Assembly: GCA_018992685.1 (NCBI GenBank)
Contig: JACVGT010000002.1
Location: forward strand, 16,294-80,293
Direction: 5' to 3'
DNA: 64,000 nt
DNA from: Theionarchaea archaeon
Lineage (GTDB): Archaea > Methanobacteriota_B > Thermococci > Methanofastidiosales > SZ-28-30
In this document: positions 42,044 through 61,782 of the stretch, piece by piece
Layout: each line of letters starts with the position of its first letter
How positions within the stretch are numbered: position 1 is the first letter of the stretch
Position numbers and translations under genes: made by a program
The notes under the pieces: model-generated
The model's database searches: none
Told to the model about the DNA's origin: nothing
Seen by the model: the letters and a program-made list of their open reading frames with translations, nothing else

Positions 42044-42865
42044 ATGAAAATAGAAGGAATTACGTTCTATAAAATGTCTGGTGCAGGAAATGATTTCCTG
42101 GTTATTGACAATCGAGAAGGCATCATCCCTGAGAAAGAGAAGGGTGACGTTGCCAGAAGAGTGTGCAGGAGACGGCTTTCAGTGGGAGCAGATGGGATTC
42201 TTCTGGTGGAGCTATCACAGATTGCCACCTTCAGAATGAGATATTTCAATGCAGACGGGACTGAAGGGGAAATGTGTGGAAATGGAGCACGATGCATTAC
42301 CCGATTTGCTTTTGTGAAAGGGATTGCAGGCGAAGAAATGACAATTGAGAGTATGTCCGGGATACTGGAGGCACGCGTCATGGGTGAGAAGGCCACAATC
42401 ACGCTGAACCCAGTGACAGAAAAGGAACTTGACAGGGAGATTACGGTTGATGGCCAGAAGATACAGTTTGATTACATAGAAGAAGGAACACCCGGACTGC
42501 CGCACAGCGTGATATTCAAAGATGATCTGACTGAGGAGGAAGATATCGAAGAGATTGGCAGAAAAATAAGGTACCACAAAGCCTTTCAGAGGGGAACAAA
42601 TGCTAATTTCTGCAGAGTCCTGGGGAAGGATACAATCCTGAACAGGACCTACGAGAGGGGCGTGGAGAGAGAGACCCTGGCCTGTGGAACTGGGTCTGGA
42701 GCTGCTGCGTGTGCAGTATTCTTGCACGGAATCTGTGGACCTGAAATCGAGGTAAAAACCAAAGGTGGAACTCTCAAGGTCACCATAGGAGATGAAAACC
42801 TGCAGAAGATTTATTTGACTGGAGATGCTCGAATCGTGTATGAGGGGATCTTAAAGGAGGTATGA
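42044..42865 (+). CDS. dapF: Diaminopimelate epimerase
   Basis: 273 residues. Catalytic Cys pair in MCGNGARC (near 75) and LACGTGSGAAA (near 213), with KMSGAGNDFLVID at the N-terminus. PLP-independent epimerase for LL- to meso-diaminopimelate. The ATG follows the previous stop with no gap. The cluster context (two LysA-like enzymes, class V enzyme, Asp/Glu-racemase-like protein) leaves open that it acts on another amino acid. Confidence 0.93.
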   Translation: MKIEGITFYKMSGAGNDFLVIDNREGIIPEKEKGDVARRVCRRRLSVGADGILLVELSQIATFRMRYFNADGTEGEMCGNGARCITRFAFVKGIAGEEMTIESMSGILEARVMGEKATITLNPVTEKELDREITVDGQKIQFDYIEEGTPGLPHSVIFKDDLTEEEDIEEIGRKIRYHKAFQRGTNANFCRVLGKDTILNRTYERGVERETLACGTGSGAAACAVFLHGICGPEIEVKTKGGTLKVTIGDENLQKIYLTGDARIVYEGILKEV

Positions 42866-43036
42866 TCGGAGCTGGGTTGAACCAGGACGTGGACAGATTG
42901 TCTGGTGCAGAGTCAGGGAATCGGATAAAATTCAGTAGTATTAGTTCTTCCGGAAAAGAGAGACTTCTTTTGATACATTTCTGCAAACGTGGTATATAGA
43001 CCTTGCACTTGGAGAATTTTTTCAAATTTGCCATTT
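42866..43036. other. Intergenic region after dapF
   Basis: 171 bases without ORF. A small T-rich stretch (GGAGAATTTTTTC, 43012-43024) may end dapF transcription. The region ends at the left boundary of the duplicated segment. Confidence 0.4.
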
Positions 43037-43325
43037 GATTCACTGTATCCCTTCCAGGGATAACCTAAGGTTTCTCTACTCACACAGATCTAAATTGGTG
43101 TCATCGATCACAGTAATCGGCATATATCCATCGATATGACTTTCACGCTCAGGATAATACTTATATTGAACAAAACCACCGGGCAATCCATGGCTACAGA
43201 ATCCAGAAGAAGATTCACCTTCCCTGTAGGATACCATGAGTTCCACAGAGACCAGGTTTTCAATTTCCAGCTCAATCGCTGGTATTCTCTTGGATATACA
43301 CGATTCGAAGATTTGAAAGAGGCGG
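43037..43325 (+). repeat. Segmental duplication, truncated copy (pairs with 61494-61782)
   Basis: Direct copy of the end of the TolB-like remnant, the promoter and the first 136 coding bases of the alpha/beta hydrolase gene. The coding part differs at only 2 of 136 positions by eye; the upstream part is more diverged. Similarity stops abruptly after GAGGCGG at 43325. Confidence 0.85.
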
Positions 43326-43402
43326 TTTCCTCCAGAATTCTAGAGTTTAGAAAAGGGCCACGACTGCATAATCTCAGTTTGATTCGAAAGAGAACACTCT
43401 AG
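43190..43402 (+). pseudogene. Truncated 5' fragment of the alpha/beta hydrolase gene
   Basis: Matches the first 45 residues of the hydrolase at 61647-62798 (opening MATESRRRFTFPVGYHEF), then runs into unrelated sequence and stops. The catalytic part is missing. TATA ACTTATATTG is retained at 43159-43168, so the fragment may still be transcribed. Confidence 0.85.
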
Positions 43403-43798
43403 AACAGCTGATCACTTCTTGTATCTACTCCGTTCTTTTCCTCCATGAATGGGGAACCTTATGAAAAGAACTGAAGGTATCCATTCCCGCTTCGTATGAA
43501 CTACTATTTCTTCTACTGTATTTCAACGTTTTAGTTCCAGGCTTTTTTCAAGTCCTCAAAAGTACTTTTCTAGCTGTTTTTTAGAAAATATGTCCTTAAA
43601 ATATGAAGGCTCATAAACGTTCATAGTTCTACTATTCTTACCTTCAATTCTGCACTTTATGAATCATGTTTTTCTACCACGAACGCAAAGTAACAGTCAA
43701 ATACGACATTCCAGTCCCGACTCCAGAGACTTGGTGCGCGTCATGAGTGAATAGCTAGATTTTTATATAACAGGTTTCAATGTCAAAATGGCGATGAA
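43403..43798. other. AT-rich intergenic region before the helicase/nuclease/DpdA block
   Basis: About 396 bases, clearly AT-richer than the surroundings, without ORF. It ends with the TATA box TTTTATATAAC (43760-43770), about 30 bases before the helicase start, suggesting a leaderless or short-leader transcript. Confidence 0.5.
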
Positions 43799-46237
43799 AT
43801 GATACATTGTCCAGTATGCGGAGCAGAGAATCCTGTAGATTCTTTCTTCTGCGGAAGATGTGGAGAAAAGATAATTATTGAAAAGAGATCTCTGATTGAC
43901 TGGCCAGATTTTGAGAAGGCAGTTATTGACCGTTTGAAGAGAAACATTGGAAAAGAAGAAGATGATAATCAGAATAGAGCTATTGGAGCTCCTATCAACA
44001 GCTCTCTCTTCGTGGTTGCAGGTCCAGGGAGTGGCAAGACCACGGTTGTCGCTCTCAGAATACTGAAGTTGATATTTGTGGACGGTATAGATCCATCTTG
44101 TATCATCGCGACGACTTTTACACGCAAAGCAGCAGCTGAACTCCGATCTCGAATTCTTGGATGGGGAGATCAACTCAAACAATGGTTCATTACTGGCTCC
44201 ATCTCTGAGTCTGATAGAGAATGGCTGAAAAAGCTTGATTTGAATCGGATTATTACAGGAACTCTTGATGAAATTGCAGAAACAATTTTAGGGGAAAACC
44301 GTTTCCCCGGAGACACTCCCCCTATTATAATCGAAAATTTCGTGTCAAAAGTACTGATGTTAAAATGTGGTCTTCTTCAGACCAATCTGCATTCTGATAT
44401 GAACCTGGAAAACTTCATTATCTTTCTGAGAGATAGTAAATGGGAACTCACTATTTCGGAGAAGTGTTCCATTTTGCTCGAGTTGAAAGACAGATTTCTT
44501 CATGACCGTGTAGACGTTAGAGAATATCGTTCAGACTCCAGACACGCGGGAGCCAGACTAGCGTGTGAGGCAATAGGGGCATATATAGTTGAACTGAAGA
44601 AGAAAGATCTCTTTGATTTCGCATTATTGGAATTACGATTATTCAATGATCTTAAAAATGGATTGTTAAATGAATTCCTTGGCAGTATCAGGTTTCTTCT
44701 AGTTGATGAATACCAGGATACGAATTTGCTCCAGGAAGGAATTTATTTTGAAATTGCCAACGTGGTCACGAGAAATGATGGGAGCATTACTGTTGTTGGA
44801 GACGACGACCAGTCTCTGTACCGATTTAGAGGGGCAACAGTTGACCTTTTCAAGACATTTCAGGAGAGAGTGAGTGAACAGCTGGGTCTGAACCCGTCTC
44901 AGATATTTCTTTCCAACAACTATAGATCGACGTCGACTATTGTTAATTTTTGTAATGATTTCATCAGACTTGATCAAAATTATCAGAAGACAAGAGTCAA
45001 AGAGAAGCCTTCTGTAAGACCAGCTCGTGCTAGGAGAAATCCAGAGTTCCCAGTCATCGGAATGTTCAGGCCTAATGTTGATCAGCTTGCACAGGATATT
45101 GCCACGTTTGTCCACGAAGTCATCCGTGGGAAGGGCTTCCGTATCAGGGATAATCAGAACGACATGACCTACACTATAAGAGTTGACGCTGACAGAGGAG
45201 GTCCTGCAGATGTTGCCCTTCTCTTTCATTCTCCTCGTGAATATAGTTATGAAAGAAGGAGACTCCCCTTGCTTTTGCGAGAAGAATTCAGCAAGTTCTT
45301 GCCACCACTCCTGGTTTTCAATCCTCGAGGTCAGAATTTCGAGGAAATTCCTACTGTCAAAATACTCTGTGGCTTGTTACTGGAATGCATAGACCCAGGT
45401 AGTCGCGTCCAAAATGCGCTTAACCTCTCCTCTGCAGCACATGAGGTCATGGAAAAGTGGAGGGAGACTGCAAGGAGGTATGTTGAAACAAATCATGTAT
45501 CCTCATCAATGGGCAGCCTTCGTTCCTTCATAGATACCTGGCAGAAAAGATCAACCCCAGGAATGAAGCGAAAAGTCAACATGAACGTGTCTCTGATAGC
45601 ATTGGTGTACAAACTTATTACGTGGATACCACCCATGCAGGATGACATAGAGAATCTGGTCTATCTGGAAGCCATCGTAAGAACGATCAATCAACTGAAC
45701 CCTTCTGGTAGATATGGGGGGCACATTGTGCTCAACAGTGAGAAGCTCTGGTTGCAGCAGGATTCCATAGAAGAAGCGATATACAGTATATTTTTCCCCA
45801 TGGCATCTGGAGCAGTGGAGGTCAACGAGGATCTTTTTGAAACTCTTCCCAGGGACAGAGTCAACTGCATGTCCATTCATCAATCCAAGGGCCTGGAATT
45901 CCCTCTTGTTATCGTGGATGTGGGTTCTGAATTTCTAGGAGATAATGAAATGCAGGCATTCAAGAGATTCCCAAGACGAGGTGGAAGGACAAGTAGAATC
46001 GAAGATGAGACCAGAGACTATTCTGATCTGAGATTTTTCACAAGAACAGGCTTAGATAGGGAATTTGACGATTTGATTAGATTATATTTTGAAGCCTATA
46101 GTAGAGCCAAAGACTGCCTGATGCTCGTAGGCCTGGAAAGCGTCAAGTCTGGTCGAGTACCACATGTCGCCACCGGATGGGATCGAAACAGAACCTGGTT
46201 CTGGAGGCATACACTTGGAAATGTGCTCTATATCTAG
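43799..46237 (+). CDS. UvrD/Rep-family superfamily 1 helicase with N-terminal zinc ribbon
   Basis: 812 residues. A zinc ribbon lies at 1-24 (C4, C7, C18, C21). The SF1A helicase motifs follow: I AGPGSGKTT (74-82), Ia TTFTRKAAAEL, II LLVDEYQDTN, III VVGDDDQSLYRFRGA, IV NNYRSTSTIV, V MSIHQSKGLEFPLVIVD and VI YFEAYSRAKDCLMLVG. ATP-driven 3'-5' DNA unwinding. The next gene is a RecB-type nuclease, so the pair resembles a small AddAB-like machine, and the third gene is a DpdA-like DNA-modifying enzyme. First gene of the block. Confidence 0.93.
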   Translation: MIHCPVCGAENPVDSFFCGRCGEKIIIEKRSLIDWPDFEKAVIDRLKRNIGKEEDDNQNRAIGAPINSSLFVVAGPGSGKTTVVALRILKLIFVDGIDPSCIIATTFTRKAAAELRSRILGWGDQLKQWFITGSISESDREWLKKLDLNRIITGTLDEIAETILGENRFPGDTPPIIIENFVSKVLMLKCGLLQTNLHSDMNLENFIIFLRDSKWELTISEKCSILLELKDRFLHDRVDVREYRSDSRHAGARLACEAIGAYIVELKKKDLFDFALLELRLFNDLKNGLLNEFLGSIRFLLVDEYQDTNLLQEGIYFEIANVVTRNDGSITVVGDDDQSLYRFRGATVDLFKTFQERVSEQLGLNPSQIFLSNNYRSTSTIVNFCNDFIRLDQNYQKTRVKEKPSVRPARARRNPEFPVIGMFRPNVDQLAQDIATFVHEVIRGKGFRIRDNQNDMTYTIRVDADRGGPADVALLFHSPREYSYERRRLPLLLREEFSKFLPPLLVFNPRGQNFEEIPTVKILCGLLLECIDPGSRVQNALNLSSAAHEVMEKWRETARRYVETNHVSSSMGSLRSFIDTWQKRSTPGMKRKVNMNVSLIALVYKLITWIPPMQDDIENLVYLEAIVRTINQLNPSGRYGGHIVLNSEKLWLQQDSIEEAIYSIFFPMASGAVEVNEDLFETLPRDRVNCMSIHQSKGLEFPLVIVDVGSEFLGDNEMQAFKRFPRRGGRTSRIEDETRDYSDLRFFTRTGLDREFDDLIRLYFEAYSRAKDCLMLVGLESVKSGRVPHVATGWDRNRTWFWRHTLGNVLYI

Positions 46238-46249
46238 GATGTGAGAGGA

Positions 46250-47440
46250 ATGACATTATCACCACAAGTCCCGCCGTACAAGATACCTGAATACAGCCTG
46301 ACAGGAGATTTACTGGCATACTTGAATTGTGGACTTCAATACAGGTACCATAATAGAGGATGTCTGCCGCCTTCAAGGCCAATTCAGTTGTGGTTTGGTG
46401 AGTTCATTCATTCAGTCATGGAGGAAGCTTTCCTCCAATGGAAGCAAGATGCTCAGAAGAAGATATTTCCATGGATGTGGAATCCTGATATCCGCAACAT
46501 TGAGCAAGAGATAGGCAAAAGACTGAGAGCACGAGGACTGATTCCACCTGCGAGAATCTTCTGCCCGTATGACTCATCATACCGGAGACAGGGATGGTGT
46601 CCAGATGGAAAGCACCCTCATAAACTGATTGCAAGCCGGAGAGCTGAAGAAGCGATTAACACATGGGGGGTACATCTCTTTCCCTTAATTGACAGTGCTG
46701 AGGTCCGGCTGAAAGGTATTCGTGATATGCCTGGTTCTACGGGGGAAAGGAGGTGTGATTACTATGAGATAACAGGGATCATTGATGTGATAAGCTCTGT
46801 CAATCTTCGTAATTCACTGTCTGGAAACCTGATATTGCACTACATGCAGAGAAACCCCGCTGTGAAGAAGTACATTGACAGTCTGAAGGGGCCTGAGTAT
46901 GAGATTATCGTTGACTACAAAGGAATGGGGAGACCCTCTTTAGGAGACCCGAGAAGAACCTGGACGTATCATGAATGGCAAATACTCACGTATGCCTGGC
47001 TTCGCAGTCAGCAGCCCGATGCCAGGCCTGTAGCTGCGGGGATCATTTTCTATCTCAATGAATTGGCGCCGGTGAGGCGAGACATCAGAGAGCTGCGCGA
47101 GAGTGTAGAAAGAGGTTCAACAGATGTCGTACCTCAAGGACAGGATTTAGACGTCGTCCAGAGTCTGGGAAGGAACGTACCCTTCCCATTTCTCTCGAGA
47201 GAATTCAGGGAAGAAAGGTCTATAAGGATTATTCCAATGAGTGAAGAGAGAGTCCAAGCCTCTCTACATGAATTTGATACTGTGGTGAAAAACATCGAAT
47301 CTTGCGTGCACCTGGAGGTTTCTGGAAATGGCATTAGGTCGTCATGGCCTGCACAACCACTTGAACGTATGTGCACGCTCTGCGATTTCAGGACATTCTG
47401 CCCACATCCGGACGTCTCTGAGTATGGAGAAAGCAGATGA
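46250..47440 (+). CDS. PD-(D/E)XK nuclease with Fe-S-type Cys cluster (RecB/AddB/Cas4-like)
   Basis: 396 residues from the ATG at 46250, with GGATGTGA upstream; GTG 46241 is also possible. An N-terminal Cys (LAYLNCGLQYRY) and three C-terminal Cys (MCTLCDFRTFC) form the 4Fe-4S pattern of AddB and Cas4. The nuclease core has the His of GEFIHSVME and a D-x-K motif in EIIVDYKGMG; WQILTYAWLRSQ gives the QhxxY element. Starts 12 bases after the helicase stop, so they probably act together in end resection or restriction. Confidence 0.85.
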   Translation: MTLSPQVPPYKIPEYSLTGDLLAYLNCGLQYRYHNRGCLPPSRPIQLWFGEFIHSVMEEAFLQWKQDAQKKIFPWMWNPDIRNIEQEIGKRLRARGLIPPARIFCPYDSSYRRQGWCPDGKHPHKLIASRRAEEAINTWGVHLFPLIDSAEVRLKGIRDMPGSTGERRCDYYEITGIIDVISSVNLRNSLSGNLILHYMQRNPAVKKYIDSLKGPEYEIIVDYKGMGRPSLGDPRRTWTYHEWQILTYAWLRSQQPDARPVAAGIIFYLNELAPVRRDIRELRESVERGSTDVVPQGQDLDVVQSLGRNVPFPFLSREFREERSIRIIPMSEERVQASLHEFDTVVKNIESCVHLEVSGNGIRSSWPAQPLERMCTLCDFRTFCPHPDVSEYGESR

Positions 47441-47444
47441 TACT

Positions 47445-48701
47445 ATGGAAATGAAGTTCTATTTGCCAGATTGGGAAGACCGGCTGGATCCAGATTTTGA
47501 TTTCGCCAATGACGAATATTCGGAAGGGCACAAAGAGAACCCCTATACATATGATATGTATGCGCATCAGCTCTTTGATACACCTCTCTGTGATGGAATT
47601 CTCGTCAGTCTGAGTATTTTCAGATCGAAAATCTCTTTGAATAAGGAAGAGACAAGCTATAGTATACGAGATTGCAGGAACATAAAGGATTTCCTCAGAA
47701 TCCCGGGAGATTCCACATTGAGAGTCATGGGCGATTGTGGGGCTTTTGGATATGTCAAAGAAATAGAGCCTCCAAAGCCCTTTTATAGTGTTGAAAATGT
47801 GGTCAATTTATATGAGAAGCTTGGATTTGATTTTGGGGTGTCTGTGGATCATCTGGTTGTGGATTACGTGTTGACAAAGAATATTCGCAATGGAAAGAGA
47901 GAAAAGAGGGTTATGTCCATAGATGAGAAGAGAAAGAGGATTCAATTAACGCTGAAAAACGCGGAAGAATTCTTGAGGTTGCACAAGAAAGAGAAGTGCG
48001 ATTTCATTCCGGTGGGTGTTGCTCAAGGGTATGATCAGGACACATACCGGCGATCAGTGAGGAACCTGACGAGAATGGGGTACGAATATATTGGAATGGG
48101 CGGCCTGGTGCAGTACTCCTCGGAATTCATACTACATGTTTTAAGAAGTATTAATTCATTGATTAAAGGGAAAGATGTTCATTTATTTGGCACTGTAAGA
48201 CCAGATTATTTGAGGGATTTTGAAAGCCTGGGTGCAACGAGTTTTGACAGTGCTTCGTTTCTTCGCAAGGCCTGGCTCAGAGATGGACAGAACTATCTGG
48301 CACCAAATGGAAAATGGTACAGTGCAATTAGAGTCCCCCAATCCTCAAACTCCAGACTTATGAGGACCGCCCGTTTGAATGATTTCTCTCTGGATGATCT
48401 CAGGAGGATGGAACTTGATTCCCTGGAAGCGTTGATTGACTATGATCAGACTGAGAGTGATCTGGACCACGTCCTGGATGTCGTCCTGAGATATGATGGC
48501 CTCCTCTTGCGAAGCACCAAACATGGAAACCTTAGAAAGAATTACAGGAAAACATTGTTAGATATGCCATGGAAACACTGCAAATGTGATATCTGCAGGA
48601 AGATAGGAATACATGTGATCATTTTTAGAGGGTCGAACCGAAACAAACGCAGAGGATTCCATAATATATGGATCCTGAATAGGCTGAAGAATGACATTTG
48701 A
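47445..48701 (+). CDS. dpdA: DpdA-like 7-deazaguanine DNA transglycosylase (TGT superfamily)
   Basis: 418 residues from the ATG at 47445, four bases after the nuclease stop. The N-terminus (MKFYLPDWEDRLDPDFDF, then YDMYAHQLFDTPLCDGILVS) is that of DpdA proteins rather than of tRNA enzymes. TGT features: DCGAFGYV with the base-catalyst Asp (D97), VAQGYDQDTYRRSVRNLTRM plus YIGMGGLV, LFGTVRPDYL, the second Asp in TSFDSAS (D268), and a C-terminal zinc site CKCDIC with a following His. No PUA domain. Bacterial DpdA exchanges guanine in DNA for preQ0 in a modification-restriction system. The helicase and nuclease partners here differ from the bacterial dpd set. Confidence 0.82.
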   Translation: MEMKFYLPDWEDRLDPDFDFANDEYSEGHKENPYTYDMYAHQLFDTPLCDGILVSLSIFRSKISLNKEETSYSIRDCRNIKDFLRIPGDSTLRVMGDCGAFGYVKEIEPPKPFYSVENVVNLYEKLGFDFGVSVDHLVVDYVLTKNIRNGKREKRVMSIDEKRKRIQLTLKNAEEFLRLHKKEKCDFIPVGVAQGYDQDTYRRSVRNLTRMGYEYIGMGGLVQYSSEFILHVLRSINSLIKGKDVHLFGTVRPDYLRDFESLGATSFDSASFLRKAWLRDGQNYLAPNGKWYSAIRVPQSSNSRLMRTARLNDFSLDDLRRMELDSLEALIDYDQTESDLDHVLDVVLRYDGLLLRSTKHGNLRKNYRKTLLDMPWKHCKCDICRKIGIHVIIFRGSNRNKRRGFHNIWILNRLKNDI

Positions 48702-48887
48702 TGTCTGGTAGGACATGGGCCATCTTCGGGCACAGATCTGTGCATGCTTTGGTCAACAAGCATCCTTGAGGATAGACTGCGGACCTGGCGCTTGAGCTTC
48801 TTGGTGAGAAACTGATCTCAAGGAAGGAGGTGCTTTTTGCTGAAAACGGTAGCGTTTCAGTCGTTTAGGAGGAGTATAACCAGTAAT

Positions 48888-49565
48888 TCAGATATGCCAA
48901 TAAAGTGGATACTGCCCTAAAAGCACATTGTACTTTGGTCCCTTCTTATCCTCATTTTCAGAGGGATATTTTGTTATTGCTTCATAAAGAAGAGGTTCTA
49001 GCTTTGTTTCAACATATTCTGCTTGTTTTTCAGTCAAGTAACCTTTCCATACACGCGGGATGAACCCCTTCACATTATTCAGTTTGATGTTAATTCTTGA
49101 ATTTCTGGTAATTGACAGAATTTTCATATCTCCATCCTTAATTACCTCATGGCTGATCTCAGCAAGTGTTGCATAGAACTGATATTCAAGGAGAACCAGG
49201 TGTAAGTACTTTTTCAGCATTGTAACATCATTTGACTCAAAGATATCTTTGAAATCCACTCTTAACTGTAATCGGTCACATTCGGGCAGCGTATAGATCT
49301 TTCTAAAGCGTCCCGTTGCTGGTACTGATACTGATAGAATTTCAGTTTCAACCATTTTTGTCAGATGGTATGATAGAGTGCTTCTCTGTATGCGAGTGAG
49401 CTCCATGAGTTCTTCAGTAGTTGCCTGGTTTTCTCTCAGGATGAAAAAGTAGATTCTCGCTCTTTGAGGATCCTGAAGAACCTCCAACTGTTCTATTACT
49501 GTGTCTACATCAATTGTCGTGACTTTGAGTTCTTTCTCAATCCTATCGTGTGGTTCTCCAGTCAT
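48888..49565 (-). CDS. ArsR-type winged-helix transcriptional regulator
   Basis: 225 residues. An N-terminal wHTH (EQLEVLQDPQRARIYFFILR, then TTEELMELTRIQRSTLSYHL) is followed by a wing and a large C-terminal domain of about 130 residues (VDFKDIFESNDVTMLKKYLH) that may bind a ligand. Divergent from the beta-lactamase-fold gene. The intergenic region holds two palindromes, so it probably controls itself and its neighbour. The ATG at 49565 is only 5 bases from the 12-bp palindrome GGTCATATGACC. Confidence 0.8.
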   Translation of the reverse strand: MTGEPHDRIEKELKVTTIDVDTVIEQLEVLQDPQRARIYFFILRENQATTEELMELTRIQRSTLSYHLTKMVETEILSVSVPATGRFRKIYTLPECDRLQLRVDFKDIFESNDVTMLKKYLHLVLLEYQFYATLAEISHEVIKDGDMKILSITRNSRINIKLNNVKGFIPRVWKGYLTEKQAEYVETKLEPLLYEAITKYPSENEDKKGPKYNVLLGQYPLYWHI

Positions 49566-49569
49566 ATTT

Positions 49570-49631
49570 GGTCATATGACCTTCATTGCGATAGTTATAA
49601 AGTTTTCGATTACCGTCGAAACATTTTTATA
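49570..49631. promoter_or_regulatory. Divergent promoter with two palindromes
   Basis: GGTCATATGACC (49570-49581) is a perfect 12-bp palindrome next to the regulator start. TTTCGA and TCGAAA half-sites flank ACCG around 49604-49623. They lie between the minus TATA (CTTTATAAC, 49593-49601) and the plus TATA (TTTTTATACT, 49623-49632). Likely operator sites for the ArsR-type regulator. Confidence 0.55.
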
Positions 49632-49663
49632 CTCATCGAATTATAGAATCTCAGGTGATACGA

Positions 49664-51112
49664 ATGGACCTGGAAAGAGCCAAAGAGCAGCATGCCCTGA
49701 TAGCAAAAGCCCTGGAAGAACTGGATTTTGGAAAATTGTATTTACAATTCATGACCGAAATGCCAAAAAAAGGATGCACATGGTTACAGAAATTTATAAG
49801 AGAGCACAGGTACGAATTAGAAGACGAGGAAAAGAAGGAAACCCTTCTATTCATCTATATTTTTGGGAAATTACTCGCTGGAGAACAATTCTACTTTATC
49901 AATTCACGAAATATCTCAGAGAAACTAATAGAGGTGGATTTTTTTACCTCCAAGAGTAATGTAATCTTATTCTCAAAAATGAGCAGAAAATCAACAGAAA
50001 ATATGGATTTGGATCTACTGAAGATTACTTTTCCCGGGTTTGAAGACATGTATCAAGATAATACTCTCGTATCATTAGAAGAAGCAGTAACCAGACTGGA
50101 CAGAATCTTTGATGAGCTTGAGGAGAAGAACATCTTTTCGGGGAGTGTTGGCATCACCAAGAATGATGAATTCATTTTCAGACGATCGTTGGGAGAGGCA
50201 GACATGAGATATCATGTTCCCAATAACATAGACACCAAATTTAATCTGGGTTCAATGAACAAGATATTTACTGCTGTAGCGATTTTACAACTGTATGAAG
50301 AGAAGAAGCTCGATATCCTCGACACGGTTGCAACATTTTTGCCGGAATTTCCACATGGAGACGAAATATCTATTCATCACTTGCTATCACACACTTCAGG
50401 GCTGGGGTCTTTTTGGAATCAAAAGTTTGAACAGAGGTTCAAGAGCATTCGATCCATTGATGATTATATGGACTTATTTATTGAAGAAAGTCTTCTTTTT
50501 CAACCCGGAGAGCGCTTTGAATACAGCAACGCAGGATTTATTGTGTTAGGAAAAATAATTGAAGTAATCACAGGTAAATCATACGATGAATACGTTCAAC
50601 AGCATATCTATGATGTTGCAGGAATGCAGAATACCTGCTGCTACGAAATAGACCGAACCGTTCCAAATCTGGCAATGGGGTACACCCATGACCCCGATAT
50701 TGACAGGGGTTGCCAGGATCACTACATTAATAATTTCCTGATGATACCCGTGAAGGGCAGCTCTGCGGGGGGCGGTTATTCTACACTTGATGACCTCGTA
50801 TCATTTGCCAAAGCGCTGAAAAAAGGAGAATTAATCTCTGAGCATTCATTGAACATGATGCAAGAACCACGTATCACAAAGGGAATCGAATCCCGACCCT
50901 CAGAGGATTATGGTTATGGATGTCAAACGGGAAGTATAGGGAAAAATAAGTTTTACGGTCATGGTGGTGGTGCTCCCGGTGTAGCAACGATGCTAATGAT
51001 CTTCCCAGATATCGATGTAGTTGTAGCACTACTCAGTAATTGGGATCCCATGTATGAGATTTTTGCTGAACAACAGATTTTGAACATCGTCATGAGAGTG
51101 AGCTTTTCCTAA
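49664..51112 (+). CDS. Beta-lactamase-fold serine hydrolase (class C/PBP4*-like) with N-terminal domain
   Basis: 482 residues from the ATG at 49664, with AGGTGAT upstream. An extra N-terminal domain of about 135 residues (helical, charged) precedes the serine hydrolase domain. SxxK is S197-MNK200 in NLGSMNK, YxN is in FEYSNAGF, and HxG is in GHGGGAPG. Family members hydrolyse esters, amides or D-amino-acid peptides; true penicillin targets do not exist in archaea. No signal peptide, so it is probably cytoplasmic. Divergent from its likely regulator. Confidence 0.88.
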   Translation: MDLERAKEQHALIAKALEELDFGKLYLQFMTEMPKKGCTWLQKFIREHRYELEDEEKKETLLFIYIFGKLLAGEQFYFINSRNISEKLIEVDFFTSKSNVILFSKMSRKSTENMDLDLLKITFPGFEDMYQDNTLVSLEEAVTRLDRIFDELEEKNIFSGSVGITKNDEFIFRRSLGEADMRYHVPNNIDTKFNLGSMNKIFTAVAILQLYEEKKLDILDTVATFLPEFPHGDEISIHHLLSHTSGLGSFWNQKFEQRFKSIRSIDDYMDLFIEESLLFQPGERFEYSNAGFIVLGKIIEVITGKSYDEYVQQHIYDVAGMQNTCCYEIDRTVPNLAMGYTHDPDIDRGCQDHYINNFLMIPVKGSSAGGGYSTLDDLVSFAKALKKGELISEHSLNMMQEPRITKGIESRPSEDYGYGCQTGSIGKNKFYGHGGGAPGVATMLMIFPDIDVVVALLSNWDPMYEIFAEQQILNIVMRVSFS

Positions 51113-51233
51113 AATCCTGTAAAACCGGTTCTTGTCTAATTCATTTCTCCAGTAAGACTCTCGCCCACTGATGGTTAATCCGATCTTGAGGAAGGAGGAA
51201 GTATGTGGAAGAGACAAAATGTCTAAAGGTCTC

Positions 51234-52010
51234 CTACGATCTCATAAGTATCACAAGGGGGGAATTCTCCACTGGGTGACTCTGTACTATGGCTTCGACT
51301 CCAAAAATCTCTCTCATATTTTTCACAGTCAGCACTTTTTCAGGATTCCCAAAAGCAAGAACATTTCCTTCTTTTAAGACTATTAACCTATCAGAATACA
51401 AGGATGCAAGGTTTAGATCATGGATAGCACAGATCACAATCAGCCCCTCTTCTGTCAACCGTTTCACGAGATCGAATATCTCGATCTGATGGCGAATGTC
51501 AAGGTTGGCTGTGGGTTCATCAAGTAACAAAACCTTTGGAGATTGGGCGAGTGCCCTGGCAATAATAACCCTCTGTCTTTCTCCTCCTGAGAGATTCGTT
51601 ATCACCCTATCTCTCAAATGAAAGGTATCAGTAGCCTCCATCGCCTTTCGTGCAATCTCAATATCCTCCTTCCCCTCAAATTGGAACAGGGTTAAATGAG
51701 GATTCCTCCCCATTACTACAATATCAGATACAGTGAAGGAGAAGGTCATGGGAGAGTCCTGTGGTATCACTGCAAGAATTCGAGCCACCTCTTTCAACTT
51801 CATGGACTCAATCTCCACATCTCCCAGATAGACAGTACCACATGTTGGTTTCAATATCTTACTCATGACATGAAGCAGGGTTGATTTTCCGGAACCGTTA
51901 GGTCCAATGACTCCTATGAATTCCCCTTCTCTCGCAGTAAAATTGATATCCTGCAGCACATCGCCCAGGTTATACCCTGCATGGATGTGCTGTACTCTAA
52001 CCTTTTGCAA
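51234..52010 (-). CDS. btuD: ABC transporter ATPase, B12 uptake type
   Basis: 258 residues. Walker A GPNGSGKSTLL, Q-loop VIPQDSPMTF, signature LSGGERQRVIIARAL, Walker B LLLDEPTANLD and the H-loop AIHDLN. I prefer a TTG start at 52010, five bases after GAGGTGA; the frame also opens at GTG 52019, which is part of that ribosome site. It overlaps btuC by 14 bases. The genes sit beside B12 synthesis genes and share their operator, so cobalamin or cobinamide is the likely substrate rather than a siderophore. Confidence 0.92.
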   Translation of the reverse strand: MQKVRVQHIHAGYNLGDVLQDINFTAREGEFIGVIGPNGSGKSTLLHVMSKILKPTCGTVYLGDVEIESMKLKEVARILAVIPQDSPMTFSFTVSDIVVMGRNPHLTLFQFEGKEDIEIARKAMEATDTFHLRDRVITNLSGGERQRVIIARALAQSPKVLLLDEPTANLDIRHQIEIFDLVKRLTEEGLIVICAIHDLNLASLYSDRLIVLKEGNVLAFGNPEKVLTVKNMREIFGVEAIVQSHPVENSPLVILMRS

Positions 52011-52998
52011 ACATATCACCTCGCTTCTTTCTCAGTAAATAAATGAAGAATGGAGCCCCAAAAAATGCAGTCACCACCCCCACCGGCAATTCAGAAGGTG
52101 AAATTACCGTCCGTGCCACATTATCAGCCCATATCATGAAAATTCCCCCAAGGACAGCAGAGCTGGGTAGTAAAATCCTGTGGTCCGGACCCACAATGAT
52201 TCTCACCATGTGGGGGACAACGAGCCCGACAAACCCAATGATACCACTCACAGACACGGCTGCACCAGTCATCAGTGACGTCATCACCACCAGGACTCTC
52301 TTAACAGCATCCACCTCCACTCCCAGATGTTGCGCAGTTTCTTCTCCCAGGAGGATGGCATTCAAGTCCCGTGAAAAGAGAAGAGATACCATAATGCCAC
52401 CACCTGTAAAGGGGAGTAACAAGAAGACATATGTCCAGCTTGCAGTCCCGAACCCTCCCATTAGCCAAAAATACAGACTGTGAAGCCATTTTTCCGAGAC
52501 ATAAATCAGAAAAGAGAGAACTGCAGACAGAAACGTAGACATGGCAATTCCCGATAGCAGGAGGGTCTCAACCGACATGGTACCATTCGTCTGTGCAATA
52601 GTATACACAGCACAAATAGTGATTGTTGAAAAGAAAAAAGCAAGAAGAGGAACAAAATATATGGATGTGAGGGCAAGGCCAGACACGATGGCAACTGCTG
52701 CTCCCACTCCTGCTCCCGAAGACACTCCTAAAATGAAGGGATCTGCCATGGGATTTCTGAAAAGCCCCTGCATGATGCAGCCAGAAGTGCCAAGACATCC
52801 CCCCACCATCATGGCCAATAAGACTCTGGGGAGCCGTATCTTAAGAATGATGGCTTCCTGAGCCGCATTATAGTAGTGGGTATCGAAGAATATTCTCATA
52901 ATCGTTATGACATTGATCCGTATTGATCCAAGAGCAATAGACACAAGTACAGTTATGAGAAGAATTAGAAGGAGAGAAGAAAGTTTGAATCCCTTCAT
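51997..52998 (-). CDS. btuC: ABC transporter permease, FecCD/BtuC family
   Basis: 333 residues, about ten transmembrane segments. IRLPRVLLAMMVGGCLGTSGCIMQGLFRNPMADPFILGVSSGAG is the classic FecCD block (shown as separate motifs: IRLPRVLLAMM; GLFRNPMADPFILG), and GFVGLVVPHMVRIIVG-type motif VVPHMVRIIVG is the second. Forms the membrane channel for btuD and btuF. The ATG has GAAGGTGT upstream. Confidence 0.94.
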   Translation of the reverse strand: MKGFKLSSLLLILLITVLVSIALGSIRINVITIMRIFFDTHYYNAAQEAIILKIRLPRVLLAMMVGGCLGTSGCIMQGLFRNPMADPFILGVSSGAGVGAAVAIVSGLALTSIYFVPLLAFFFSTITICAVYTIAQTNGTMSVETLLLSGIAMSTFLSAVLSFLIYVSEKWLHSLYFWLMGGFGTASWTYVFLLLPFTGGGIMVSLLFSRDLNAILLGEETAQHLGVEVDAVKRVLVVMTSLMTGAAVSVSGIIGFVGLVVPHMVRIIVGPDHRILLPSSAVLGGIFMIWADNVARTVISPSELPVGVVTAFFGAPFFIYLLRKKRGDMFAKG

Positions 52999-53026
52999 TC
53001 AGAACACCTTCTTCTGAGAAAGCCAT

Positions 53027-53962
53027 TCATGCACATTCCCACATGGGAAGGAACACCTCACTGGACTCATAGACTGCATTGCTAATGAAGCCTGCGAGAA
53101 TCTCTAACCCTTCAACGATTCGCGGACCTGGTCTCAGCACCAAATCACCGTCAATGACATAGATCGCATTGTTCTTCACTGCAGCAATTGTGTCCCATCC
53201 GGGTCTGCTCACCAACTCTTCAATACCAACTCCTCCCATCCCCGATACAAGGATGATGAGAACAGGATTCTCAGCGATAATTGTCTCACTGGATATATTT
53301 GGATATGATGTATCAGCATCTGCTGCAATATTGCGACCACCTGCCAGGAAAATCAGGTCGTCAACAAAACTGCCAGGCCCGAAAGAACCATACCCACTGG
53401 TGGATACCCATCCTTCAACATATAGTGTCAGGGGTTCAGAGGGTGCATTCGTCTTCACAGCTTCTATCCGTGCTTCAAGATCAGCTCTCAGGTCCTGTGC
53501 AGCCTCTTCTTCACCCACTGCCACCCCAATCAATGTAATACTATTGAGGATATCAACCAGTGTTAAAGGATTGAGGATGATGACAGGAATTCCCAGTTCC
53601 TCGAGTCTCTCCGCGATCTCCTGGTGGTTACTGGTGGCAACCACAATATCGGGGTTCAACGAGATGATCTTTTCAATATTAACATCGCTGAATCCACCCA
53701 CTTTTTCTGTATGTAATGCATCCTGGGGATAGGTGCAGTATGATGTGGTTCCTACAATTTTCTCACCCGCACCAATCGCATACAAAATCTCGGTATTGGA
53801 GGGTGCAAGGGAGATAATTCTTTCAGGATGTTCTTCAATGAATACCTCTTTTCCCGTGTCATCCACAATGGTTTTGGGGAATTCACCTTCAGGTTGAGGG
53901 CTTTCCTGACCCAGACAACCCAGGAGTATGAGGACTATGAAAATTGCTACACCTTTTTTCAT
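53027..53962 (-). CDS. btuF: B12-type substrate-binding lipoprotein
   Basis: 311 residues. Signal and lipobox ILLGCLGQE put the lipid Cys at residue 16. The binding-protein fold has VDDTGKEVFIEEHPERIISLAPSNTEILYAIGAG at its start (motif used: ERIISLAPSNTEILYAIG), then KIISLNPDIVVATSNH. First gene of btuFCD. The promoter has a TATA box (GGTTTATATG, 53996-54003) with the B12 operator directly downstream at 53971-53991. Confidence 0.92.
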   Translation of the reverse strand: MKKGVAIFIVLILLGCLGQESPQPEGEFPKTIVDDTGKEVFIEEHPERIISLAPSNTEILYAIGAGEKIVGTTSYCTYPQDALHTEKVGGFSDVNIEKIISLNPDIVVATSNHQEIAERLEELGIPVIILNPLTLVDILNSITLIGVAVGEEEAAQDLRADLEARIEAVKTNAPSEPLTLYVEGWVSTSGYGSFGPGSFVDDLIFLAGGRNIAADADTSYPNISSETIIAENPVLIILVSGMGGVGIEELVSRPGWDTIAAVKNNAIYVIDGDLVLRPGPRIVEGLEILAGFISNAVYESSEVFLPMWECA

Positions 53963-53970
53963 TATATCAC

Positions 53971-53991
53971 TTGGATGGTCTATCCATCCAA
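53971..53991. promoter_or_regulatory. B12-regulon operator (btuFCD copy)
   Basis: Perfect inverted repeat: arms TTGGATGG and CCATCCAA with spacer TCTAT. It lies between the TATA box and the btuF start, where bound protein would block transcription. The same design occurs at 59845-59865 and 60074-60094. Confidence 0.85.
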
Positions 53992-54072
53992 CCGCATATA
54001 AACCTTTCCATTGATCAAAATTCGGGTAGTGGTTCTCTCATTCTTAAAAGAAAATGGTTGTTGCCATGCTCT

Positions 54073-54663
54073 TTAGACAGGTTCTGTGAGATATTTTTGA
54101 AGAGTATCGATGTCGTCTATAGTATTGACATTGAGAGCGACTTCAATTCTATTGAGGATCATCACCTCTTCCTCCTGTGCATCGTCAGGGTTTTCCATGA
54201 TCATTGCACCCGAGACTACATTGATCCCTGAAGGGGATAACAGCTCTTTTTTGACAATTCCATGCTTTTCACAAAAATCTTTTGTTATATACACAGCGAG
54301 AGCAGGGGTTTCTGATTTTTCATTTATAGTAACGACGTCATTCAAAATTCCTGGTGTGATCAGGGGCACATCGGAGGACAGAACAAGAACGGGTTCAGAA
54401 ATGTTCTTCTCACGAATGACTTCTCTCATGTCTTCAATGTATCCTCTCCCAGCTGTAACTATCTTTTGAACAGCTTCTGATTCTATAAATTTTCCTGTTT
54501 CTGGTGTATTTTCTGAGACTGCAACAATAATCTCTCCTATGTTGGCCTTTTTTACAGAATCAATGACTTTCTTTATCATTGGAGTTCCCCCTATGGAAAG
54601 GAGAGGTTTTTCTCCCATGTGCAGTCTCTCTCCTTTTCCACCAGCCATTATGAGCACCTTCAT
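54073..54663 (-). CDS. cobY: Adenosylcobinamide-phosphate guanylyltransferase (CobY)
   Basis: 196 residues. NTP-transferase start MAGGKGERLHMGEKPLLSIG, then VSENTPETGKF and VLSSDVPLITP. CobY is the archaeal, non-homologous replacement of CobU, activating adenosylcobinamide phosphate with GTP. Last gene of the operon, overlapping cobS by 4 bases. No kinase function, as expected for CobY. Confidence 0.93.
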   Translation of the reverse strand: MKVLIMAGGKGERLHMGEKPLLSIGGTPMIKKVIDSVKKANIGEIIVAVSENTPETGKFIESEAVQKIVTAGRGYIEDMREVIREKNISEPVLVLSSDVPLITPGILNDVVTINEKSETPALAVYITKDFCEKHGIVKKELLSPSGINVVSGAMIMENPDDAQEEEVMILNRIEVALNVNTIDDIDTLQKYLTEPV

Positions 54664-55385
54664 CTCATCACCACAATAAGAAGTATCATGGACATCATTC
54701 GCGTCGTATCGTGGGTTACTCCTATGAAATCTCCACCGATTCCACCGAGATTCCTTTCTGCACCTATTGTGAGGAGATACGCAAAGACTAATGTTGATGC
54801 GAATAATAATGCCCCAACTTCCAGGAAAACGGACAATAATATCCCGGAAATCAGGCAGCTTTTCAAAAATAATTTCCTGTCAGTAGCCTGGATAAACCAG
54901 CTTCCCATTCCCTTATGACTTGAGGTCCCGAAAAATGCTATACAGTTCATGGAGAATTTCGCAGACACTTCAGACCCTATCAACCCAACGAATAGTGAAT
55001 CTAGGGCCATAAGTTCCACAATACAATATACAGTCGTCAACAAGACAAAAAACGCCATAAAAAATCCTCCAATTCCTATAAAGTGGTCGTGCATTACGTC
55101 AATCTTCTTTTCTCTTGTCCCGGTGACCAGGAGTGCATCTCCCACATCCAGCAGCCCATCAGTATGGTGTAACCCTGTGAGAACCATCAAAAATCCCAGG
55201 GTGAATACCCCTGCCAGTGTATGTGGACATACCCTGAGAGCACACCATGAAAAGGCAAAACTCGCACATCCGACACATAACCCTATCAAAGGGAATATGT
55301 AGGATGCCTCTGCAGTTTCTTCTAGAGTTCCTCCTTTCACAGGAATCCGGGTGAGAAATGCCAGTGCGTATGTCACTCTTTTCAT
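54660..55385 (-). CDS. cobS: Adenosylcobinamide-GDP ribazoletransferase (cobalamin synthase)
   Basis: 241 residues, membrane protein. LAFLTRIPVKG at the N-terminus and GLHHTDGLLDVGDALLVTG followed by the MHDHFIGIGG motif are CobS signatures. It joins activated cobinamide to alpha-ribazole (phosphate). Overlaps cbiS and cobY by 4 bases each (ATGA). Confidence 0.95.
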   Translation of the reverse strand: MKRVTYALAFLTRIPVKGGTLEETAEASYIFPLIGLCVGCASFAFSWCALRVCPHTLAGVFTLGFLMVLTGLHHTDGLLDVGDALLVTGTREKKIDVMHDHFIGIGGFFMAFFVLLTTVYCIVELMALDSLFVGLIGSEVSAKFSMNCIAFFGTSSHKGMGSWFIQATDRKLFLKSCLISGILLSVFLEVGALLFASTLVFAYLLTIGAERNLGGIGGDFIGVTHDTTRMMSMILLIVVMR

Positions 55386-56416
55386 GTTCTGACCTCATGA
55401 AAAATCTTCGAAGAAATCCCAGCAAGTAACCCCCCCAGGATGTCATCAAGAAAAGGACCAGCCCTCCCAATGATGCCTGGTTTAACCCGTTCAACTCTTG
55501 AAAATTCATACACTGCCAGGGTCCCTCCAATGTAATTTGCTATTGCATTTCCCAGGATTTCATCGGCCACTAAATGTATGGGATCTTTTTCAAACTCTTC
55601 TCCAGAAAGTGAAGGAATGAGACCTTTTCTGCCATCTTCTTCTAATCTCAGTGCTCCAAGAATGAGAGAGGACACATTTATATCCTTTAATATAGAAATG
55701 AGTTCATCTCCAAATAATCTTCTGAAATCCTCTCTGGAGAGAGTGTCATTTTCAAGGAACATTTCCATCTCAGCATCCACTAGATCTTCAACAGAAATAG
55801 ATCTCTCAGCAAGTCTTTTCATGATTTCTCTTCCCGGTTGAATTTTCTCGAATGACATCAATGCTTCGAGAACACAGGTTTTCACAGAATCGAAGATGGT
55901 CCTCCCTAGATCTGTAGCTCTCCCGCAATATTTCACTTCTTTTCCTTTTCCAGTGCACGCAACAACTACTGAATCTGTTACTGTTCCCCACAGGCCTTCA
56001 TAGATACTTTCTCTTATATCCAGATCATGGAATGCTGCAGCTTTGGCTTCACATGCAACGAGGACAGCATTCACCATTCCCTGCAGGGTGATATCCCCAT
56101 CTATGATGAGGATTGTGTTCACCGTGTTAGCATATCCTGCAGTGACAATGCATAAGACTTCACCCTCCTCACGTGTGCGGTAGCTGTTCACATCCACTGC
56201 AGTCATCATACCAATAAAATGGGATATTCCATACAGCTGTGCAAAGGCTTTCAGGTCTGATTCAGGATTTCCATCGTATTCTTTGGGTACCTGGAGATTC
56301 AGGATGGTAGTGGTTGTAGCATACCCCCCGAAAGTGGCAGAACTCAATGAGGTAAGATCTCTCTCAGACTTCACAAAAATACAGTTATCTTTCACATATA
56401 CATCTACACCTTCCAT
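55382..56416 (-). CDS. cbiS: Bifunctional adenosylcobinamide amidohydrolase / alpha-ribazole phosphatase (CbiS)
   Basis: 344 residues, a natural fusion. Residues 1-200 are CbiZ-like (SATFGGYATTTTILNLQVP, VCIVTAGYAN-type core, VVACTGKGKE), which cuts the aminopropanol chain of cobinamide for salvage. From about 205 on it is PgpA/CobZ-like (LVDAEMEMFLEN, VADEILGNAIANY, GPFLDDILGGLLAG), the archaeal alpha-ribazole-5-phosphate phosphatase. This is the CbiS architecture known from Methanopyrus. GGTGG is 4 bases before the ATG; overlaps cbiB by 13 bases. Confidence 0.9.
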   Translation of the reverse strand: MEGVDVYVKDNCIFVKSERDLTSLSSATFGGYATTTTILNLQVPKEYDGNPESDLKAFAQLYGISHFIGMMTAVDVNSYRTREEGEVLCIVTAGYANTVNTILIIDGDITLQGMVNAVLVACEAKAAAFHDLDIRESIYEGLWGTVTDSVVVACTGKGKEVKYCGRATDLGRTIFDSVKTCVLEALMSFEKIQPGREIMKRLAERSISVEDLVDAEMEMFLENDTLSREDFRRLFGDELISILKDINVSSLILGALRLEEDGRKGLIPSLSGEEFEKDPIHLVADEILGNAIANYIGGTLAVYEFSRVERVKPGIIGRAGPFLDDILGGLLAGISSKIFHEVRT

Positions 56417-57312
56417 ATTGCCACCTCCACCAGGAGAAGGATAACCACAAAAATCAGTGTCGATCCCTTCATGACAGTCAATGTATCTGCAATGTGATGC
56501 GGGGCAAGGGCCTGACTATCATGCCCCAGGGTGTAACGCCCTCTCTTCTCAAACGTAACATGTAATACTCCTGCCATCATTGCCATGGTATTTCCTGCAT
56601 TTGGACTTTCTGTCTTATTCCTGTCCCGTAAGAAGATCTTGAGACCATTTCTCCAATCACATCCATGCACTACCCCGGAAAGCAAAACAAGAGCTGCAGC
56701 TAACCGTGAAGGAATGAAATTGAGGACATCATCAAGTCTGGCAGAGAGAGTTCCTATCCTCATGGATTTGTAGCCTACCATTGAGTCCAGTGTGTTCATA
56801 CCCCTGTACACGGCTGCACCATACAATCCCAGGACAGAATAGTAGAACAAGGGCGAGATAATAGAATCAGTGATGGACTCTGCAACTGATTCACACGCTG
56901 CAGAGATGACTTCTTTTTCAGAAAGGTCACTGGTATCCCTCGATACAATTTCTGACACTTTCTCTCTCCCCTTTTGAAGATCTCCCGCTTCTAACGCTAT
57001 TTTTACCTCAGAAGCAGCCTGATGTAAGAATCGTACAGAGAATGTGGTCTTCAATAGTAATGAGAGTGCAAGAATTCTCAAAATGAAAGGTACTGCTGAT
57101 GCGAGGTGAAGATAACAATAGACGAACATCACAGTCACAGACACTATCGAGAACACTATAAAGCATCCCCAGAGCATTTCATGATCTCTCGAATCAAAAA
57201 AAGATTTCTGGATGGAAACGAGGGTTCCAATATACCTGACAGGGTGGATGAACCCCGGTGGTTCCCCAAAAAGCACATCCACTGCCAGGGCAGTGAGAAT
57301 GATCTCAATCAC
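56404..57312 (-). CDS. cbiB: Adenosylcobinamide-phosphate synthase
   Basis: 302 residues from a GTG at 57312 with GGTGG five bases upstream. The frame is open to 57405 but that part lies inside cbiP. AVDVLFGEPPGFIHPVRYIG at the start, SVAESITDSIISPLFYY, YKSMRIGTLSARLDDVLNFI and ESPNAGNTMAMMAG are CbiB motifs; several membrane spans. It attaches aminopropanol phosphate to cobyric acid. Overlaps cbiP by 8 bases. Confidence 0.93.
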   Translation of the reverse strand: MIEIILTALAVDVLFGEPPGFIHPVRYIGTLVSIQKSFFDSRDHEMLWGCFIVFSIVSVTVMFVYCYLHLASAVPFILRILALSLLLKTTFSVRFLHQAASEVKIALEAGDLQKGREKVSEIVSRDTSDLSEKEVISAACESVAESITDSIISPLFYYSVLGLYGAAVYRGMNTLDSMVGYKSMRIGTLSARLDDVLNFIPSRLAAALVLLSGVVHGCDWRNGLKIFLRDRNKTESPNAGNTMAMMAGVLHVTFEKRGRYTLGHDSQALAPHHIADTLTVMKGSTLIFVVILLLVEVAIWKV

Positions 57313-58789: not shown

Positions 58790-59846
58790 GAAGACGCCTC
58801 AACTCCTGTACAAGCATTTCATTGGTTTCGTGTGGTTTCACACACAGTCTCACGTGAGAGGAGTCCAACCCCCTGAAGTTTGAACAATCTCGTATTAGGA
58901 CTCCCCTCCCCAGGAGCAGTCTTTTCAACCTATGGGATTGGATTTTTGTCTTCAAGAGAAAGAAGTTAGTATCTGAAGGATAGGGATCAAGATAAGGGAT
59001 CTTTGAGAGTTCTGAATAGAGATAGTGCTTCTCTCTTTCTAAGAATCTTCGTGTATCTTCAATGAAGGATTCATTGCAGAGGGCCCTTCTCACTGCCTCC
59101 TGTGCGATGTAATTCACATTCCAAGGTGTGGCGACCTTTTCCATGTATGCAATGACATCTTTACTGGAGAATCCATATCCACATCGCAATGCAGGTATAG
59201 CGTACAGTTTTGTTGCTGACTTTAAGACAAACAGATTTGGGGTTGATTCCTGGACGAGAGATTTCCTACGAGAAAAATCAATGAATGCTTCATCTAGAAA
59301 TACGATAACGCCTCTTTTCTCAGCTTCATCCACCACAGACATGATGTCCTCTGAATAGAATCCTGTGGGATTATTGGGATTGCAGAGAAAGATAACCTTT
59401 GTCAGATCTCCTATTTTCTCTATGATCTCATGAGGGTCAATGAGCAGGTTCTTCATCTCTACAAATGTACACGTTCCTCCATGCAATTTCACCATCCTTT
59501 CGTATTCAGAAAACGTTGGAACAGGTATGAGTACTTCGTCTCCTTTCTTTAAAAAACACTGACAGAACAAGCGTAAGACTTCAAGAGAACCATTTCCAAC
59601 AATGATATTCTCCACGGGAACTGAATAGGTACATGAGAGTTGTTCTTTTAATCTGGTACAACCTGTATCAGGATAGTGACGTAATTGTACGGGGTCAAGG
59701 GTTTTGATGAATTCCACTATCTCTGCAGGAGGTCCCAGAGGATTCACATTGGCACTGAAATCGATGGCATCATAGTGAATGGCATCGTCACCATGAGAAT
59801 AATCAGGTAAGGAACGTATGTCAGGATTGGGACAGAAGATATGCAT
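58773..59846 (-). CDS. cobD: L-threonine-O-3-phosphate decarboxylase-like aminotransferase (CobD)
   Basis: 357 residues, PLP fold I (histidinol-phosphate aminotransferase-like). DFSANVNPLGPP at the start, LCNPNNPTGFY, FLDEAFIDFS, and the PLP Lys in LKSATKLYAIPALRCGYGF. In this operon it should make aminopropanol phosphate for CbiB. First gene of the operon; the ATG lies inside the B12 operator and about 22 bases from the TATA box, so the message is probably leaderless. Confidence 0.9.
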   Translation of the reverse strand: MHIFCPNPDIRSLPDYSHGDDAIHYDAIDFSANVNPLGPPAEIVEFIKTLDPVQLRHYPDTGCTRLKEQLSCTYSVPVENIIVGNGSLEVLRLFCQCFLKKGDEVLIPVPTFSEYERMVKLHGGTCTFVEMKNLLIDPHEIIEKIGDLTKVIFLCNPNNPTGFYSEDIMSVVDEAEKRGVIVFLDEAFIDFSRRKSLVQESTPNLFVLKSATKLYAIPALRCGYGFSSKDVIAYMEKVATPWNVNYIAQEAVRRALCNESFIEDTRRFLEREKHYLYSELSKIPYLDPYPSDTNFFLLKTKIQSHRLKRLLLGRGVLIRDCSNFRGLDSSHVRLCVKPHETNEMLVQELRRLHEEPE

Positions 59847-60094: not shown

Positions 60095-60106
60095 CAAGGT
60101 GATATC

Positions 60107-60586: not shown

Positions 60587-60590
60587 TGGT

Positions 60591-61292: not shown

Positions 61293-61351
61293 CATTCTAC
61301 TCGAAATTGGCTTTCTCCTGAGAGATCCATCAAACAGACGAGCCAATGAAA

Positions 61352-61543
61352 GATTCGGTAGATGATGAGAACCCATCCTGGTCATCCGATGGGAAGAAAA
61401 TTGCATTTGAATCAGATCGAGATGGGAATAGAGACATATGTCATGAATGCTGATGGTACTAATCAGGTGAATATGTCCAATAATCCCGCTGATGATTCAT
61501 TGTATCCCTTTCAGGGACAGCCTAAGGGTTCTCCACTCCCATA
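61352..61543 (+). pseudogene. TolB-like beta-propeller gene remnant
   Basis: Encodes NPSWSSDGKKIAFESDRDGN in one frame, then after a small deletion near 61437 continues in another frame with YVMNADGTNQVNMSNNPADD. These are two parts of a TolB/PD40 blade like those in 30861-31907. The flanks have no further blades, so only a fragment remains. Confidence 0.75.
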
Positions 61544-61782
61544 GATCTGAATCGGTGTCATTCATTACAGTAGTCGGCATATATCCATCGATATGACTGT
61601 CGCGCTCAGGACAACACTTATATTGAACAAAACCACCGGGCAATCCATGGCTACAGAATCCAGAAGAAGATTCACCTTCCCCGTAGGATACCATGAGTTC
61701 CACAGAGACCAGGTTTTCAATTTCCAGCTCAATCGCTGGTATTCTCTTGGATATACACGATTCGAAGATATGAAAGAGGCGG
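61494..61782 (+). repeat. Segmental duplication, parent copy (pairs with 43037-43325)
   Basis: Covers the end of the TolB-like remnant, the TATA box (ACTTATATTG, 61616-61625) and the first 136 bases of the hydrolase gene. Same orientation as the truncated copy 18.4 kb away. Confidence 0.85.

Follow-up and report, generated by a model that had tools for sequence, protein, structure and literature searches.

Three adjacent genes in the genome of a Theionarchaea archaeon (assembly GCA_018992685.1), encoding a UvrD-like helicase, a RecB-type nuclease, and a DpdA-like DNA-guanine transglycosylase, raise the question of whether so small a block could mark DNA with 7-deazaguanine and restrict DNA by that mark. 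The block lies in a stretch of 64,000 nucleotides (contig JACVGT010000002.1, positions 16,294 to 80,293, forward strand), hereafter the window; the archaeal source genome comprises 3.03 Mb in 45 contigs, and statements about the whole genome rest on family searches. The block appears to be a mobile form, not described before, of the known Dpd systems for DNA-marking defence, and on balance we favor the reading that it is a mobile Dpd-type modification-restriction system whose restriction arm has been replaced by the helicase-nuclease pair. At the sequence level, this reading is carried by intact genes, complete catalytic motifs, the identity of DpdA, linkage of the genes across phyla, genes for preQ0 synthesis, and a patchy distribution.

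All 3 open reading frames (ORFs) are complete and intact on the + strand, and the 12-base and 4-base gaps described between them in an initial annotation of the sequence were confirmed. The first gap is counted from the helicase end to the nuclease ATG at 46250, a start shared with relatives, and the second separates the nuclease from DpdA. Sequence and phylogeny identify the third gene as a true DpdA. Its product scored 418.7 bits against NCBIfam NF041059 (cut-off 200), with models of transfer RNA (tRNA)-guanine transglycosylases (TGT) far below their own cut-offs, and the whole length aligned with the solved DNA-guanine transglycosylase 7ui4 (E 1.1e-83). The full set of TGT catalytic and zinc motifs that had been predicted was recovered, with D97, D268, C379, C381, C384, and H406 aligning with 7ui4. 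In a tree of 37 TGT and DpdA sequences, 21 of them DpdA, the DpdA proteins formed one group (95/99), arcTGT proteins formed a separate group (100/100), and haloarchaeal DpdA made up a branch of its own. The window protein fell in a six-member DpdA group (100/100), and the other 5 members are all encoded beside the helicase-nuclease pair or in the same genome. Clustering with tRNA-acting TGT, named in the initial annotation as the outcome that would speak against its proposal, was not seen: the protein lies in the DpdA clade, outside arcTGT, and with support values of 95/99 and 100/100 for the 2 clades, identity as a tRNA TGT was rejected. The host's arcTGT was found on another contig. Beside it, a second TGT-like protein of 354 amino acids (aa) is encoded (L002, contig C21:1187-2140), which has relatives within the order and groups with neither DpdA nor arcTGT.

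The first gene encodes a UvrD-family helicase (Pfam UvrD-helicase, E 1.5e-43) whose sequence relatives are UvrD, AddA, and Rep. It had been described as a zinc-ribbon superfamily 1 (SF1) helicase, and we indeed identified an N-terminal CPxC/CGxC ribbon and every SF1A motif; UvrD and the zinc ribbon are its only domains (812 aa). None of the other full-length relatives compared shows the ribbon (window 43799-43880, double CxxC) within its first 45 residues. The nuclease (396-399 aa, depending on the use of the start at 46250 or 46241) matched PDDEXK_1 (E 5e-11), carries the RecB-family motif, and has the four-Cys cluster previously assigned to it. In a 24-sequence alignment, the motif residues H57, D182, D225-Y-K227, and Q247xxxY251 were invariant, as were the cysteines C30 and C378-x2-C381-x5-C387. 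A search of solved structures with the nuclease sequence found no relative. The predicted structure (predicted local distance difference test score, pLDDT, 84.7; modelling poor over the final 25 residues, where the C-terminal cysteines lie) had AddB as its best fold match (E 1.4e-5), followed by Argonaute-associated Cas4 proteins, with modest TM-scores. With AddB as the top fold match of the nuclease and AddA and UvrD as sequence matches of the helicase, the pair is AddAB-like. It shares with AddAB an SF1A helicase and a four-Cys PD-(D/E)XK Fe-S nuclease, including the C-x2-C-x5-C cysteine spacing of AddB. In contrast to AddAB, the pair consists of two small proteins, a helicase without a nuclease domain and a nuclease without the inactive helicase part of AddB, and it is linked to DpdA.

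The initial annotation had allowed that the 3 genes might never co-occur elsewhere. We found the linkage on plasmids, in genomes of several phyla, and on a viral contig. The proposal of a compact archaeal system stood insofar as the gene set recurs and failed in its restriction to archaea, with the set also present in Chloroflexota, alphaproteobacteria, cyanobacteria, and Bacteroidota. Among 72,556 plasmid records, a close nuclease was present in 3 and DpdA in 28, and all 3 nuclease records also carried dpdA and the helicase; the chance of finding dpdA in 3 of 3 was ~5e-11, assuming independent records and ignoring kinship. The block is no accident. Of 144 genomic loci found with the nuclease, 80 were kept. 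A dpdA gene directly 3' of the nuclease was identified in Altiarchaeota (L048), Dehalococcoidia (L050), archaeon LFW-280 (L052), Pyrohabitans (L056), Anaerolineae (L104), and Methanoregula (L120), and a near but not adjoining one in L122 and L125. Further, a DUF6884/DpdC-like gene precedes the helicase in L050, L052, and L056, and the end of one does so in L048. Altiarchaeota, Pyrohabitans, Dehalococcoidia, and others thus have either the triplet or its four-gene form, dpdC-helicase-nuclease-dpdA. Fusions of DUF6884 to DpdA were found at the C-terminus (L120 by profile; L135, L139, and L156 read by eye) and at the N-terminus (L122 by profile; cyanobacterial proteins read by eye). In Rhizobium and Bradyrhizobium, the neighbors of the pair are dpdC or a gene at its position, dpdB, dpdA, another dpdB-like gene, and queEDC. 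A transporter gene of the Vut_1 (YhhQ) family lies downstream in L050 with DpdA and in L049 without it; YhhQ transports preQ0, as discussed in PMC11888242. One Chloroflexota locus (L122:170-18654), with DpdK-, DpdD-, and DpdH-like genes, a second TGT-like gene, a DUF6884-DpdA gene, and the helicase-nuclease pair, is a hybrid of the classical Dpd and helicase-nuclease forms.

A second, distant subtype of the pair occurs with DpdA in a Bacteroidota genome (G107) and in Methanocalculus (G106). Phage records yielded no close nuclease relative, and viral contigs yielded none with single-sequence nuclease or DpdA queries; one viral contig (G129) was found by alignment query only. It carries helicase-nuclease-dpdA of the second subtype, with a DpdA 59% identical to that of the window, and dpdC-helicase-nuclease of the close subtype. 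On this putative viral contig (IMGVR_UViG_3300006094_000039; L181:428-4896, L128:5168-9185), the 2 pairs of different subtypes, one with DpdA and one with a DpdC-like gene, are accompanied by an Mrr-like endonuclease gene. The second subtype was rejected as a component of the Theionarchaea genome, where the only match was a weak one to the block's own nuclease.

In the mechanism that we infer, which extends to the identity of the base, self-marking, degradation from ends, and the mark as a stop signal, DpdA would swap guanines in host DNA for preQ0 (7-cyano-7-deazaguanine). The host probably makes preQ0 in any case, for archaeosine, and its genome contains a queE-folE2-queC operon for preQ0 supply; the YhhQ-family gene of L050 and L049 and queEDC of the rhizobial versions likewise point to preQ0. 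Host DNA would then carry dPreQ0, or dADG should a DUF6884 protein of the host act in trans. The helicase may join the Fe-S nuclease in an AddAB-like motor-nuclease of two subunits, which would load on DNA ends or on damaged or incoming DNA and degrade it unless a 7-deazaguanine mark stops or slows the enzyme. A minimal DpdB-free system of this kind, an AddAB-like end-degrader gated by 7-deazaguanine marks and moved among archaea, bacteria, and viruses, with the Methanobacteriaceae pair as a descendant without DpdA or as the source, is a possibility that we advance tentatively.

Several observations weigh against a Dpd-type modification-restriction system. No match to PF14072 (DndB), the family of DpdB, was found in the genome, so base exchange would have to be DpdB-independent; DpdB has been reported as dispensable in some clusters (PMC12839542). 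A dedicated dpdC is also missing: the window contains no match to dpdC/DUF6884, which the nearest relatives of the block do carry as a fourth gene, and the single DUF6884 gene found elsewhere in the genome is common to relatives without DpdA. The product would therefore probably be dPreQ0, unless the protein encoded by that gene acts in trans. Most relatives of the block are contigs of metagenome-assembled genomes (MAGs), and Methanobacteriaceae keep the pair without DpdA, which fits a role in repair. Counting for the reading, the pair or its distant form also adjoins other DNA-modification genes, a methylase in one locus (L051) and DISARM in another (L045). The stand-alone DUF6884 gene itself (L129:1435-1983; contig C2:80510-81055) has matches in 18 of 20 relatives without DpdA and is apparently an archaeal housekeeping gene; because it is present in such relatives, it was rejected as the missing dpdC.

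Among known systems, Dpd islands have been described with dpdD-K and with variable content (PMC11888242). Those of the Salmonella type are similar in having DpdA with all motifs and a preQ0 supply, and in relatives of the block the same pair is accompanied by dpdB, dpdC, and queEDC. They differ in that the UvrD/AddB-like pair replaces dpdD-dpdK and that the Theionarchaea genome has no PF14072 DpdB and the locus no dpdC. The initial annotation had set the combination of a UvrD helicase and an AddB/Cas4-like nuclease apart from the known dpd genes, and this was upheld. In a PADLOC scan of the 3 genes and 3 neighbors, no dpdD-dpdK was found and DpdA was the sole Dpd profile among the matches listed, the rest of the genome lying outside the scan. 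BRIGADE, which merges Dpd with ARMADA around YprA helicases, has been reported only in halophilic archaea (PMC12458937). It too joins Dpd-like base modification to another restriction arm, at times with a PD-(D/E)XK nuclease, but the helicase of the block belongs to the UvrD family and haloarchaeal DpdA lies on a separate branch. With this helicase family and no YprA-type gene among the 6 locus proteins scanned (the rest of the genome was outside the scan), BRIGADE was rejected. BREX-related capture (BRC) systems with TGT (PMC12839542) likewise involve TGT-family DNA marking without DpdB and DpdC, but the block showed none of their HerA/FtsK, PglZ, and BrxC-like components. Gabija GajB and ARMADA ArmD share the use of UvrD-family helicases in defence, and GajB profiles in PADLOC match the block helicase, whose best 25 of 50 PADLOC matches are all GajB or RTasHel; no GajA, methyltransferase, or YprA partner is present in the block. 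Gabija was rejected, as the neighbors of the helicase are a PD-(D/E)XK nuclease and DpdA, not an OLD-family GajA. No paper combining DpdA, a UvrD helicase, and a PD-(D/E)XK nuclease came up in a literature search that did not cover key reviews and the 2023 DpdA paper, which leaves priority uncertain.

Most Dpd islands known so far are large clusters in bacteria. If our reading is true, a system of three or four genes built on a simple motor-nuclease would offer a tractable model for how 7-deazaguanine distinguishes self from foreign DNA, and an AddAB-like repair machine would be tied to DNA-marking defence. It would also suggest that a cellular archaeon, and not just its viruses, marks its own DNA with 7-deazaguanine.

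The pair could instead belong to a marked-DNA repair module, an archaeal AddAB-like end-resection enzyme for recombination, with DpdA only setting resection stops or protecting the DNA of a mobile element. DpdA over the cut-off was found in 0 of 13 carriers of the Methanobacteriaceae clade versus 11 of 15 other carriers of the pair, a count that includes L048 although it is cut by its contig end. In Methanobacteriaceae, the DpdA-free pair has a conserved chromosomal neighborhood. Mre11-like and Rad50-like genes stand directly before the pair in L115, and HerA/NurA-like genes 5' of it in L120, which together with AddB as the best fold match of the nuclease favors repair. Outside Methanobacteriaceae, however, the pair is sporadic, mostly linked to DpdA, and located on plasmids and islands, a distribution that is defence-like and not housekeeping. 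We consider the repair module a genuine but unlikely alternative, and it bears mainly on the DpdA-free pairs. In the helicase-nuclease tree, Methanobacteriaceae form one nested group (100/100), and 3 changes explain the presence of DpdA, which fits an old association of DpdA with the pair that was lost in Methanobacteriaceae, in a tree without a known root and with biased sampling that makes gain and loss indistinguishable. The row of Mre11-like, Rad50-like, helicase, and nuclease genes in the Methanobacteriaceae MAG locus L115:3734-11185 is a possible composite end-resection operon. In another such MAG (L051:2151-8230), an N6 DNA methylase gene follows the pair, possibly as a methylation-based counterpart. 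On a Nostoc plasmid (L045:3691-13179), a distant helicase-nuclease pair directly follows DISARM drmA, a DUF1998 gene, and drmC.

A type IV-like system, in which the pair attacks viral 7-deazaguanine DNA and DpdA is a decoy, an antagonist, or a recent capture from such a virus, appears improbable. Phages and archaeal viruses do modify their own DNA with DpdA (PMC6884629), and DpdA accompanies the pair on the putative viral contig. However, an operon encoding both DpdA and a nuclease that targets the DpdA product would be self-destructive with host preQ0 at hand, and the rhizobial versions have dpdA, dpdB, dpdC or a gene in its place, and que genes beside the pair. That DpdA modifies tRNA here in an incidental neighborhood, as its membership of the TGT superfamily might suggest, is very hard to credit given its strongly supported separation from arcTGT, the presence of the genome's own arcTGT, and the recurrence of the linkage in distant taxa.

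As to the history of the locus, neither the nuclease nor DpdA over the cut-off was found in any of 100 relatives. In a genome of the same genus (G001, 88% complete), homology at 84% stops where dapF ends, at window base 42863; that contig resumes its match only at window base 63086 (76%), and another G001 contig matches the window from 48862 at 93-95%. No match in that genome was found for 42864-48861. With the block absent in relatives and this interval unmatched, the sequence comparison indicates that the block is accessory and belongs to a variable region that either gained it by insertion or lost it. The features of the locus are listed below.

Features of the three-gene block and its surroundings (window positions)
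Feature	Position	Strand	Remark
AT-rich leader, with truncated copy (43036-43325) of alpha/beta-hydrolase gene region	42864..43798		G001 homology ends at 42863
TATA-box-like motif TTTTTATATA, putative archaeal promoter	43760..43769	+	~30 bases 5' of helicase start
UvrD/AddA-type SF1A helicase, 812 aa, N-terminal zinc ribbon	43799..46237	+	
AddB/Cas4-like PD-(D/E)XK nuclease, four-Cys cluster	46250..47440	+	ORF open from 46241
DpdA, DNA-guanine transglycosylase, 418 aa	47445..48701	+	
Second copy of 290-bp direct repeat, 5' part of intact alpha/beta-hydrolase gene region (ORF 61593-62798)	61493..61782	+	

The leader was correctly described as AT-rich, with 39.7% GC versus 46.4% for the window, and the broken duplicated gene reported next to the block corresponds to the 290-bp copy in the leader, 93% identical to the second copy and derived from the 5' part of the alpha/beta-hydrolase region. 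The TATA-box-like motif has 1 exact match in the whole window versus 0.08 expected, and its role as a promoter is putative. Window 48862-63085 encodes a winged-helix regulator, a beta-lactamase-fold protein, and cobalamin uptake and synthesis genes (read by eye), and part of this interval lies elsewhere in G001 with 93-95% identity, which exceeds the 84% seen on the left flank.

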